DNA of 64,000 nucleotides. Origin: Arthrobacter stackebrandtii (GTDB lineage: Bacteria > Actinomycetota > Actinomycetes > Actinomycetales > Micrococcaceae). The notes under the pieces were generated by a model. That model worked only from the letters and a program-made list of their open reading frames with translations. It was not told the origin of the DNA and did not search any database. The stretch is from assembly GCF_017876675.1 (NCBI RefSeq), contig NZ_JAGIOI010000001.1, positions 3,906,001 to 3,970,000 on the forward strand, read 5' to 3'. Positions 48,969 to 52,857 of this stretch are shown in pieces (position 1 is the first letter of the stretch; every line of letters begins with the position of its first letter). Made by a program: the position numbers and the translations under genes.

Positions 48969-49160
48969 CTGCATAACTGTCAGTAGGCGTGTTCGCTTGA
49001 GACAGGCAGGGCTGAAATGGATTCCCAAACCAATGCCAAGCAGCAGGGACCAGATGGAGCCGGCCGTCCGGAAGAACGTCCTACGCCACGGTCCACAACA
49101 TGGCCGGAGGGCGGATTCGACACGTTGACGTGGGGCGATCCGGATATAATCGTTGATCAT
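48945..49160 (-). CDS. Possible 71-residue membrane peptide
   Basis: A short frame preceded by a near-perfect ribosome site (AAAGGAGG, ten bases before the ATG at 49160). It has one hydrophobic stretch (SIWSLLLGIGLGIHF) and a basic N-terminus. It overlaps the end of the hydrolase gene on the opposite strand and I recognise no family. It may be a small membrane protein or a chance frame. Confidence 0.3.
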   Translation of the reverse strand: MINDYIRIAPRQRVESALRPCCGPWRRTFFRTAGSIWSLLLGIGLGIHFSPACLKRTRLLTVMQLSVTNHQ

Positions 49161-49504
49161 TGTGCGGAAGCCTCCTTTTTGCCATTGGCCACGGCACGGC
49201 ACTGGCAGTCGACGTCGCCACCAGCACAGAGTCTTGGAATTCACGGGTGGGTGCCAGGAAGGATGCTGCCGTGAGGAAAGCCCTCAATCTTTGGGCTCGG
49301 CAGCCGGTGGTGAATGCCTTGTCCCGGCAAGAGAAGCTGGGCCTGGACTACCGGCGGACGAAACGCGCCATGGACGAGCTGGAATCCGCGGGACTCGTCA
49401 TCAGAGTCAACAAGTTCAAGCAGGGGCATTTCTGGAGAGCCCCGGACATGCATAAGGCGCTGAATGCCTTCGTGGACAGGGCTGGCCGTCGAGCCGCACC
49501 CTGA
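49160..49504 (+). pseudogene. Truncated Fic protein gene, C-terminal third only
   Basis: The 114-residue frame aligns well with residues 291-398 of the intact Fic protein encoded at 51661-52857. Matching blocks are ARKDAAVRKALNLWARQPVV against ARRDSSAHRLLGVLLRQPVI, and AMDELESAGLVIRV against AINRLVDAGILVQI. The HPFxxGNGR catalytic motif and the whole N-terminal part are missing upstream. This is a remnant with only the C-terminal winged-helix region. A start at TTG 49160 is formal; there is no sign it is expressed. Confidence 0.7.
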
Positions 49505-49576: not shown

Positions 49577-49798
49577 TCAGTCGGTGTCCGTTGATGCGGC
49601 GGCCTGGCTGTCCGCGTAGTTAAGAACCTTCTCCAGCGACTCCAGCAGGTCAAAATCCTCCGGCCCAACGATATACGCGGCGGGTTTTCCGTTCTTCGTG
49701 ATCTGCACACGTTCCCGGCCGTAACTGGCGCGTGCAACCACGTCTGCCAGTTCGCTGCGCAACTCACGGACAGATACTGATGTTGTAACAGTTGTCAT
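49577..49798 (-). CDS. Orphan Phd/YefM-family antitoxin
   Basis: A 73-residue protein with the Phd/YefM N-terminal fold: VSVRELRSELADVVARASYGRERVQITKNGK, then PAAYIVGPEDFDLLESLE. Such proteins neutralise Doc, YoeB or similar toxins and repress their own operon. No toxin gene follows: the next 70 bases on the minus strand hold no credible frame. The ATG at 49798 follows the -10 TATAGA (49808-49813) closely and lacks a ribosome site, so the message is nearly leaderless. Five TGTACA-core sites lie upstream. Confidence 0.82.
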   Translation of the reverse strand: MTTVTTSVSVRELRSELADVVARASYGRERVQITKNGKPAAYIVGPEDFDLLESLEKVLNYADSQAAASTDTD

Positions 49799-49815
49799 GA
49801 ACTGCACTCTATATT

Positions 49816-49937
49816 GTGTACACATCCGCGTACGAATCGCGTCATATTCCGTGTACACAGTGGACATGGGCTGGACTGGTCGGGCGTGTACACATTTAGG
49901 CTCAAGAGAGGGGTTAGGGCGTGTACATTGTGTACAC
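49816..49937. promoter_or_regulatory. Array of five GTGTACAC operator-like sites
   Basis: The palindrome GTGTACAC occurs at 49816-49823, 49851-49858, 49886-49893 and 49930-49937, and GTGTACAT at 49921-49928. The first four steps are exactly 35 bases apart and the last is nine. The TGTACA core is that of known YefM/Phd operators. The first site lies between the probable -35 and -10 of the antitoxin gene. Confidence 0.75.
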
Positions 49938-50279
49938 GCATGTCCGGATGGCAGTTTACGCCTCCGGCAGCTCCTGGCACTTGAGTGCATTCAGGGGATT
50001 CCCGTGGTGCGGGCCGGAGGGATCGCCGCAGTGGCAAAAAGGCGGCCGCGCGTCAGTCTCGTGCTGAAGAAACGTGAACCAGGGAAGCCTTGGAAAAGTG
50101 CATAACTAACCACTTCTGACGCACCTGGCTAATGCGCCGATAATCTACATTATGTAAAGTAAAGTGAAATCGGGGCTCCCCGATCCGCCAGAATTGTCCC
50201 CTGCTCATCCAAACTGGTCCGCAATGGACCGGGCTCACTGCACATGGACCACCGGCAGGTGAATAGCTAAAGTTGAGGC
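49938..50279. other. Non-coding stretch in the accessory region
   Basis: No supported gene. It contains an AT-rich patch (TACATTATGTAAAG near 50149) and a small hairpin (50169-50184), and ends with the TAAAGT -10 of the TnsA-like gene. Confidence 0.5.
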
Positions 50280-50840
50280 ATGACGCGGTCGACGTCGGCA
50301 GCCGTACTTGATTCAGCACCCGGACAAAACGTGTGCCAGCTGACGTCGCGCCAGCGCGGCTCCGACGGGCTTGCGGTTCAGCCGCTGACGGCGTGGGCGT
50401 TGCCTGTCGGCGACGCCGCCCCAGTTCGCACGCTGCCCTCACCTATGGGCCGGGAAACTTTCATTGCCCTTGTGTGGTGCGCGTCCACTTCCCGGCATGT
50501 CGGCTATGGGTCTTGGCTCGAGCGCGACCGGCTGATCTTCCTGGGCCGGGACCCGACGATCGTTGGTATGGCTTCGCAACCGTTCAGGCTCGATTTTGAA
50601 CTCGACGCTGCAGGCTGGGGGGACCAAAGAGTCGGGGCACTCCCCCGCATAACTGGTGCCAATTTGCACTGGCTTGCCGGCTATAAGCGCCCACGATGCC
50701 TCGACACGGTTGACGCCCACACAATCACCGGGTTATTGCACGAAGGTCCGCTTGGTCTGCGAAACGTTGTCCGTGCAGCTGGAAATCCGGTCATGGTCCT
50801 CCCCCATGGGTGGAGCGAGGGAAAGGGAATAGCACCATGA
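50280..50840 (+). pseudogene. TnsA-like transposase endonuclease remnant
   Basis: A 186-residue frame. Its N-terminal part (RHVGYGSWLERDRLIFLGRDPTIVG, then SQPF) resembles actinobacterial TnsA-like heteromeric transposase endonucleases, judged from memory. The region after QPF jumps to WLAGYKRPRC and NPVMVLPH, which look like the C-terminal part. The catalytic nuclease core that should lie between is absent, and the end runs out of the family frame. So it is an internally deleted, probably inactive copy. No TnsB, TnsC or TniQ gene is in the window. The ATG lies six bases after TAAAGT. Confidence 0.6.
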
Positions 50841-51660: not shown

Positions 51661-52857
51661 CTATGTGCGCCTCCTGGCCCGAGCGCCGAAATCATCGAGT
51701 ACACGGACCACGTCTTTGGCCAACCAGATTCGATTTCGTTTCCCTGTCGAAATTTGGACCAGGATCCCCGCGTCAACGAGGCGGTTGATTGCTACCTGGG
51801 CATTGACGCTGGACACGCCCAGTTCGGTGGCTGCCATGGAGCCGTCGATGACAGGCTGGCGGAGCAGGACGCCCAGGAGTCGGTGTGCTGAAGAGTCCCG
51901 TCTGGCCTTGACGCTCTCCCGCCACTTGCCGTTGACGGATTCCAGGTCACCGACGAGCGTGCGGCCGTTGTGGACGGCGGCAAACGACGCCTCCGCGATG
52001 GAATGAACTATGGGTGCGATGTCGCCTGCCCGGTAGGCGCCGAGTGCCTCAAAGTAGCTGCCCGTGTCATGCAGTAGTCCGGCGGACACGGGAACGGCGA
52101 CATTGCGGGTCAACCTTCCACCCCGCAGCATTGCCTGTATCAGGGCACGGCCAACCCTCCCATTTCCGTCCGGGAACGGGTGGATCGTCTCAAACTGGGC
52201 ATGTGCAATGGCGATTTGAATGAGAACAGGAAGGTCGAGGCGGTTGGCGAATGTGGTGAGATCCTCCATCAGGGCAGGAACGCGGTCGTGGTGCGGAGGC
52301 ACGAACTGCGCGGTGTGGGGCCCCAGATTCCCCCCGCCAATCCATACCTGCTGGTCACGCCAGTGGCCAACGATGCCCGGGTTGCTTTCCTCCAGCAACG
52401 CCCGGTGCATTTCCAGTATCGCCCTGCCGTCGATGGTTTCGGAGAGCGACAAGGCGGCCTGCATGGCCCGGACGTTGCCGACAATCAGCTGCGCATTCTT
52501 GGAAGCATGGGCACCGAGCTCAGCCAAGGCAATCTGACGGGCGCCACTCGAGAGGTTCTCAATCTCCGAACTTGAGGCGCTTTCAGTGCGCAAAAGAATT
52601 GATGCGAACGGTGCGGCAATTTGACCAACCTCCGCATCGAAGCGTGCAAGCTCACTGGAGGCTTCCTCGGTCAAAGCCTGCAGTTCGCCGTCGACGGAAA
52701 TTTTCTGCGCGGAAATGAATGGCGGAACGGCCGCCCGATACGGGCCAGACGCCCTGCGTCGTTGCGTGCGTGAGGCATGCCCCTCCCCGACGCTGTGCCA
52801 TGGAAGCTCTTCATAATCGAGTGCCGGCCAGCCTGTTGTCCTGTTATCCGTTGGCAT
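51661..52857 (-). CDS. Fic-family protein (AMP transferase fold, class II)
   Basis: A 398-residue protein with the Fic motif HPFPDGNGR (residues 226-234) needed to transfer AMP from ATP to a target hydroxyl. An N-terminal inhibitory motif S96-x3-E100-N101 (SSEIEN) places it in the class with an intramolecular inhibitory helix. The C-terminal region (about 318-380) is a winged helix. The target is unknown. The ATG at 52857 lies six bases after TATGAT (leaderless), and an 11-bp palindrome overlaps that -10, suggesting repression. Confidence 0.9.
   Translation of the reverse strand: MPTDNRTTGWPALDYEELPWHSVGEGHASRTQRRRASGPYRAAVPPFISAQKISVDGELQALTEEASSELARFDAEVGQIAAPFASILLRTESASSSEIENLSSGARQIALAELGAHASKNAQLIVGNVRAMQAALSLSETIDGRAILEMHRALLEESNPGIVGHWRDQQVWIGGGNLGPHTAQFVPPHHDRVPALMEDLTTFANRLDLPVLIQIAIAHAQFETIHPFPDGNGRVGRALIQAMLRGGRLTRNVAVPVSAGLLHDTGSYFEALGAYRAGDIAPIVHSIAEASFAAVHNGRTLVGDLESVNGKWRESVKARRDSSAHRLLGVLLRQPVIDGSMAATELGVSSVNAQVAINRLVDAGILVQISTGKRNRIWLAKDVVRVLDDFGARARRRT

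Follow-up and report, generated by a model that had tools for sequence, protein, structure and literature searches.

In the yefM-yoeB toxin-antitoxin system the antitoxin is the repressor and the toxin the co-repressor, and the toxin is bound by the C-terminal tail of YefM, as described in the available part of PMC4803016. The operators of Escherichia coli yefM-yoeB and of axe-txe are presented as a long plus a short site in the accessible portion of PMC7730913. Orphan antitoxins are numerous, and roles as remnants, regulators or anti-addiction factors have been proposed for them (PMC7354431, in excerpt). Repressor-bound accessory DNA is also known from Xer recombination at the plasmid site cer, where around 180 bp of accessory sequence lie beside the core and the Arg box is found 98 bp from the XerC site (PMC2409434, in the part available), and IS1202-family elements have been located 5 bp from the XerC site of dif in Acinetobacter (PMC10132070, in the part available). 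Among the titles and abstract openings listed in searches of the open literature we found no report of a multi-site operator of an orphan antitoxin, nor of such an array beside dif.

The locus described here lies in a window of 64,000 nucleotides (the whole stretch of DNA that was analysed; GC content 66.5%) from Arthrobacter stackebrandtii, whose genome (G000; 4.43 Mb, one contig) is called the source genome below. A second genome of the genus, G012, serves for comparison throughout.

An array of five TGTACA sites upstream of an antitoxin gene

The features of the antitoxin gene and of the DNA upstream of it are as follows:

49577..49798, minus strand: orphan Phd/YefM-type antitoxin gene, 73 aa (PF02604, 51 bits; TIGR01552, 47.3 bits)
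49808..49836, minus strand: candidate promoter, with -35-like TTCGTA (49836-49831), a 17-bp spacer that includes site 1, and -10-like TATAGA (49813-49808); chosen by eye
49816..49823, no strand: site 1, GTGTACAC; its core, at -24 relative to the start codon, is where relatives have their single operator
49851..49858, no strand: site 2, GTGTACAC; -59 from the ATG, equal in G012
49886..49893, no strand: site 3, GTGTACAC; -94 from the ATG, equal in G012
49921..49928, no strand: site 4, GTGTACAT; -129 from the ATG, equal in G012
49930..49937, no strand: site 5, GTGTACAC; 9 bp from site 4 and -138 from the ATG, equal in G012

Palindromes of the GTGTACAC type had been placed by the original prediction at starts 49816, 49851, 49886, 49921 and 49930, and a motif scan of the window returned the same positions, with TGTACA cores at 49817, 49852, 49887, 49922 and 49931. 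Core spacings were 35/35/35/9 bp, and all five cores lay inside 121 bp directly 5' of the gene of the 73-residue Phd/YefM protein. Sites 1, 2, 3 and 5 were perfect GTGTACAC and the fourth was GTGTACAT. TGTACA occurred 12 times in the window compared with 3.28 expected (100 dinucleotide shuffles, largest value 8), and the Poisson chance of five copies in 121 bp was around 5e-9 over the window (0.006 expected); the array is not a product of chance. A TGTACA pair with a gap of 29 bases was unique to the array in the source genome, and the further close pairs that had been envisaged elsewhere in this genome came down to only two with gaps of 2-30 bases.

The DNA helix makes one turn in 10.5 bp, so that 35 bp correspond to 3.33 turns and successive sites are not on the same side of the DNA; each 35-bp step leads around 120 degrees round the helix and the same face is regained after 105 bp. 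The exact 35-base steps originally described were borne out, with the qualification that they do not bring successive sites to one side of the DNA. The first TGTACA, at -24, fell within the candidate promoter, which has a weak -35 element and would be nearly leaderless; this candidate was chosen by eye, its letters and spacing were verified, and it was absent from the output of the consensus scan. A protein repeat as the origin of the array was ruled out because 35 is not a multiple of 3, and an open frame of 137 aa across the array was set aside, as it begins upstream of the start common to the homologues.

Operator position and toxin neighbour in homologues

The antitoxin protein was searched in 58 genomes, 23 genomes of the genus, 395 of the family and 396 of the order, these sets overlapping. 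Forty-four loci were tallied, 21 from the 58-genome and family searches and 23 new ones from the order search, with the weaker matches L017-L035 of the 58-genome search excluded; leaving out the window and G012 gave 42 homologues. Exactly one TGTACA was present within 200 bp upstream in 34 of the 42, two in three and none in five, and 30 of the 34 single sites were located at -22 to -35. Among nine aligned relatives of 87 aa, eight carried one TGTACA at -25 and one (L012) carried two. These positions suggest that TGTACA is likely the ancestral operator of the subfamily, in agreement with the operator role first proposed for it. The long plus short site that had been taken as the norm holds for E. 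coli yefM-yoeB and axe-txe, whereas among the relatives of the present protein a lone TGTACA is the rule (34/42). That some other protein uses the palindromes, with the antitoxin gene as a mere neighbour, is highly improbable, since the same core stands upstream of homologues across the order, with one copy in 34/42 and 30 of these at -22 to -35, and an array of the GTGTACAC type was found among the 395 family genomes solely in the two carrying the gene in this form.

A match to a ParE-like toxin was obtained just downstream of the antitoxin gene in 37/42 homologues (query, the toxin of L009; some matches partial); L221, L224, L225, L229 and L239 were without a downstream match to this single query. 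Most homologues (37/42) were 85-91 aa long, the others having 26 (L168), 99 (L222 and L239), 113 (L223) and 111 aa (L240). Among all 44 proteins, only the two array-bearing ones and L168, which contains an internal stop, were shorter than 85 aa.

Conservation of the array

In G012 the gene and all five sites were kept in the same surroundings, with spacings of 36/35/35/9; core distances from the ATG were -138, -129, -94, -59 and -24 in the window vs. -138, -129, -94, -59 and -23 in G012. G012, the one relative with both gene and array, thus retained the spacing that relatives with the gene had been expected to keep, with a deviation of a single base; as the array occurs in only two genomes, this constancy is that of one comparison. 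Between the window and G012, 38/40 site bases were identical vs. 33/81 intersite bases (Fisher p 3e-9), and all core bases were kept (30/30) vs. 41% identity between the sites; of the 27 positions in each of the three long spacers, 12, 9 and 12 were identical, the first value being that of the best alignment with one gap. Synonymous divergence of the gene was above 1 per site, a distance at which unconstrained DNA is expected to be scrambled, as the spacers are. The 21-bp double site at 49920-49940 of the window is the exact reverse complement of its G012 counterpart L154 (G012:C2:57713-57733), the spacer reading TTG vs. CAA.

The array was absent from the other 21 of the 23 genus genomes. Three TGTACA at 33-37 bp were found in 3/395 family genomes, namely the source genome, G012 and G101, the match in G101 having unlike flanks and lying around 9.5 kb from the antitoxin gene of that genome. 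Three TGTACA at 34-36 bp were present in at least 118 stretches of named genomes, and among those listed only L145 (contig NZ_JADHDY010000010.1) encodes a relative of the antitoxin; the sequence of L145 is contained in the G012 contig without a single difference. This contig is titled Sporosarcina beigongshangi, a Bacillota name; its stretches have 60-63% GC and are placed in the genus of the window, and the title is probably wrong. Other periodic TGTACA arrays were seen in L172 (G101:C1:786161-786234) and L060, one with TGTACAAGGTTATCTC-like units and the other with seven copies spaced by 34-35 bp; no relative of the antitoxin is encoded by L060, which lies at the start of a scaffold of Paenibacillus ginsengihumi.

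The antitoxin protein, its tail and its toxin partner

The assignment of the protein as a Phd/YefM antitoxin agreed with the profile searches, the PF02604 score of 51 bits being above the cut-off of 29.8 and TIGR01552 giving 47.3 bits. Thus, the protein has the Phd/YefM DNA-binding domain of the type II toxin-antitoxin class, and 38 to 41 of its residues 1-57 were identical to those of the nine aligned 87-aa homologues. Most homologues finish in an acidic DDGxRVSLxELR-like tail, whereas the window and G012 proteins stop before it: the C-terminal tail of the nine relatives was absent from both array-bearing proteins (73 and 75 aa), and the 73-aa protein accordingly lacks the presumed C-terminal toxin-binding segment of its class. 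The missing tail, like the neighbouring dif site, had no place in the original prediction. An AlphaFold model made from two sequences was poor (mean pLDDT 58.5, pTM 0.36) and gave only an order of helix-strand-strand-helix, consistent with Phd; the top matches of a PDB sequence search were RelB (9g12) and Rv2865 (3g5o). Compared with G012, dN/dS of the antitoxin gene was around 0.10 (0.127/1.30 over 60 codons), a value at which the coding sequence is to be regarded as under purifying selection.

No toxin frame was found directly behind the antitoxin gene, as had been noted originally, and the ParE-like toxin of L009 had no match within 420 bp downstream; the G012 locus was likewise without a toxin match. 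The adjacent toxin gene of a type II locus is therefore absent, the neighbouring Fic gene being broken, convergent to the antitoxin gene and not in an operon with it. The suggestion that the array serves a toxin pair elsewhere on the chromosome found no support: genome profile searches gave no match to PF05016 (ParE/RelE) in G000 or G012 and none to PF06769 (YoeB) in either (0/2), whereas PF05016 matched in all four tested genomes of the same genus that carry the pair (G019, G004, G020 and G014). A ParE/RelE or YoeB partner encoded elsewhere in these two genomes is thus unlikely, and on these two profiles a toxin at another locus was dropped as an explanation. Neutralization of toxins of incoming elements, an anti-addiction use proposed for orphan antitoxins generally (PMC7354431, in excerpt), is most improbable here, because the C-terminal tail that binds the toxin in this class (YefM; PMC4803016, in the part available) is missing in both proteins.

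Neighbouring Fic genes and other GTGTACAC sites

The gene convergent to the antitoxin gene is the following:

49002..49504, plus strand: Fic gene remnant, convergent to the antitoxin gene (tblastn with the Fic protein of G012, where the frame is whole)

The remnant keeps both ends of the gene, and 777 bp including the catalytic motif are absent relative to G012. A second, intact Fic gene is located at 51661-52857 on the other side of the antitoxin gene, and only part of it was matched in G012. The motif [ST]xxxE[GN], a mark of self-inhibited Fic proteins, was present in the Fic protein of G012 and in that of 51661-52857 in the window.

In both genomes GTGTACAC exceeded its reversed control, with 40 vs. 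23 copies in G000 and 35 vs. 24 in G012 (array included). Outside the array there were 36 copies in G000 and 31 in G012, and the open frames around them all had 179 codons or more. The 36 copies of G000 lying in long open frames make the action of the protein look local; this open-frame test is weak, as 400 random points of the window gave a median of 294 codons and a 5th percentile of 173, the array itself having 137. The surplus over the reversed control may leave room for further targets. When segments were compared, and not site positions, 16 of 34 site-bearing segments of G000 aligned to a site-bearing segment of G012.

Regulation by the orphan of the neighbouring Fic genes or of some other target, with the array as one of several places of action, is suggested by the Fic genes on both sides (the convergent one and 51661-52857), by the excess of GTGTACAC over the reversed control in G000 and G012, and by the 16/34 aligning segments. 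This possibility is nevertheless unlikely. The source genome has a broken convergent Fic gene and nevertheless keeps the antitoxin gene and the array, which can therefore hardly serve that Fic gene alone; the other GTGTACAC lie in long open frames, where retention in conserved genes is unremarkable; and pair-gap scans of the source genome found no further TGTACA cluster.

The broken state of this Fic gene in one of the two genomes, together with the loss of toxin and tail and the absence of the array from 21/23 genus genomes, could also point to a functionless relic of a decaying toxin-antitoxin locus. We consider this very improbable, as dN/dS was around 0.1 at a dS above 1, the retention of 30/30 core bases vs. 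41% intersite identity speaks against long neutral decay, and a five-site array is a gain and not a loss.

The dif site and its distance to the array

Beyond the array, two further features were located:

50133..50160, plus strand: dif, chromosome dimer resolution site; 23 of 28 positions equal to the dif of Frankia alni; reads TGCGCCGATAATCTACATTATGTAAAGT
50280..50840, plus strand: frame for a TnsA-like transposase subunit, next to dif on its XerD side (NF033179, 103.8 bits, just below the cut-off of 110); a neighbour only

From the order of its arms, we take the XerC half of dif to face the array. The Frankia alni sequence used for comparison is the one printed in PMC3025954 (in the part available). 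A 28-base pattern spanning most of dif occurred in one copy each in 13/23 genus genomes (up to three mismatches), and the distance from dif to dnaA was 0.49, 0.49, 0.48 and 0.46 of the contig in G000, G016, G011 and G014, respectively. Judged by its 28-bp two-armed Xer motif, its single copy in G000 and its position opposite dnaA, 50133-50160 is taken as dif. The GC skew of the window rose near 28-30 kb, and not at dif, from negative values to values around or slightly above zero; the terminus position is thus supported by the dnaA distance and not by the skew. A block of 52 bp (50134-50185) was 92% identical in G012. A terminator-like hairpin was observed at 50167-50186 on the minus strand, directly beside dif (0.6 expected in shuffles).

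In 9 of the 11 dif-bearing genus genomes other than G000 and G012 the UvrA-like or hydrolase gene of the window was matched within 1.5 kb on the same side, the exceptions being L206, with a match to neither, and L211, which is cut off on that side; the surroundings of dif are thus the same chromosomal place in most of these genomes, with dif in a variable stretch downstream of the UvrA-like gene. In G014 homology to the hydrolase extends to around 55 bp from dif, so that insertion on the XerC side is the simplest account of the block of Fic gene, antitoxin gene and array. On the XerD side, TnsA-like (NF033179) frames or fragments were found in 4 of the 13 genomes with dif (window, L202, L204 and L210), starting around 140-270 bp from it; the frame of L204 alone was of full length and scored above the cut-off. 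It is possible that dif serves Tn7-like elements of these bacteria as a target. The array as a transposon end, considered on account of the nearby TnsA-like frame, was rejected, the sites being symmetric, their flanks unrepeated and site 1 at the operator position of the homologues. A search of the 64-kb window for a second dif-like site gave one XerD half-site only (up to two mismatches), and not the flanking site of a dif module.

The distance of the last TGTACA to the XerC half was 197 bp in the window (offset -211) and 205 bp in G012 (offset -219). The DNA between array and dif was barely alignable, with 87/193 identities (mean 67 and maximum 85 in 50 shuffles). An architectural or accessory element of dif, formed by the protein wrapping the array and influencing Xer recombination or terminus organisation as ArgR and PepA do at cer, may be considered on the basis of the dif identified at 50133-50160 and of the similar distances of 197 vs. 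205 bp across such poorly alignable DNA, with the accessory sequence beside the Xer core of cer (PMC2409434, in the part available) as a possible precedent by analogy. This role is quite unlikely: the array was absent from the other 11 of the 13 genus genomes with dif and is consequently not needed for dimer resolution, it lies farther out than in cer, and its proximity can stem from dif being insertion-prone. Dimer resolution is normally controlled by FtsK (PMC5357621, in part). The stronger proposal, that the former antitoxin was recruited as a terminus protein on a fixed array around 200 bp from the XerC arm, where it would shape or time Xer recombination or terminus placement, appears decidedly improbable. 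A functional link of the array with dif is therefore possible and not likely, an insertion-prone position being the simpler explanation.

Proposed role of the protein and comparison with known systems

We favour, with moderate confidence, the explanation that the protein is a solitary autorepressor which descends from an antitoxin and whose operator was multiplied upstream. In an ancestor of the two genus species, a Phd/YefM antitoxin of the kind paired with ParE/RelE would have lost both the toxin gene and the C-terminal tail, and the tailless protein would have been retained as a solitary DNA-binding protein, whose dimer is expected to bind the TGTACA palindromes. Site 1 would be the inherited operator within the gene's own promoter, and sites 2-5 would have been gained upstream, their positions being fixed by selection. 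With four sites at 35-bp steps and one tight pair, the array of five may provide avidity in place of the toxin co-repressor, and the outcome would be toxin-independent autorepression together with a local nucleoprotein complex, perhaps with some benefit to the cell; steps of a third of a turn would favour a DNA wrapped around a complex over proteins bound next to each other along one face. One point against the autorepressor is the location of sites 2-5, which are upstream of the presumed promoter and not needed there for simple occlusion.

If the solitary autorepressor is correct, the locus would offer a natural case of the fate of an antitoxin after toxin loss, in which the DNA-binding half is selected, the toxin-binding half discarded and the operator multiplied, and with a single small protein and 150 bp of DNA it would allow a test of whether antitoxins turn into ordinary regulators. 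Should the array also touch dif, a protein-controlled accessory site would have been added to chromosomal dimer resolution, and a terminus protein, if real, would be a chromosomal counterpart of plasmid Xer accessory sequences.

dif modules often carry toxin-antitoxin genes. The locus resembles dif modules and IS1202-family elements in that added genes gather beside dif, the IS on the XerC side (PMC10132070, in the part available), and differs from dif modules in having one dif copy and no second flanking site. With cer and its proteins ArgR and PepA it shares repressor sites within a few hundred bases of an Xer core (PMC2409434 and PMC5357621, both in part); unlike cer, the site here is a chromosomal dif, the protein is unrelated, and there is no sign that recombination depends on the array, the comparison being one of distance (197 and 205 bp).

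The likeness to yefM-yoeB and axe-txe consists in the Phd/YefM domain and in palindromes with a TGTACA core in and near the promoter (PMC7730913 and PMC4803016, both in part), which at the present locus is a candidate chosen by eye. Those systems combine a long site with a short one at a distance of 12 bp, whereas here five sites follow at 35 and 9 bp and both the toxin gene and the tail are absent; the long and short repeats of a YefM operator, 12 bp apart from centre to centre, thus have no equivalent in steps of 35, 35, 35 and 9. The nearest relatives are the Phd/YefM-ParE/RelE pairs of the genus and family, with an antitoxin of 87 aa and a PF05016 toxin, to which 38 to 41 of residues 1-57 are identical; compared with these pairs, the toxin and the end of the protein have been lost here and the operator has become fivefold.
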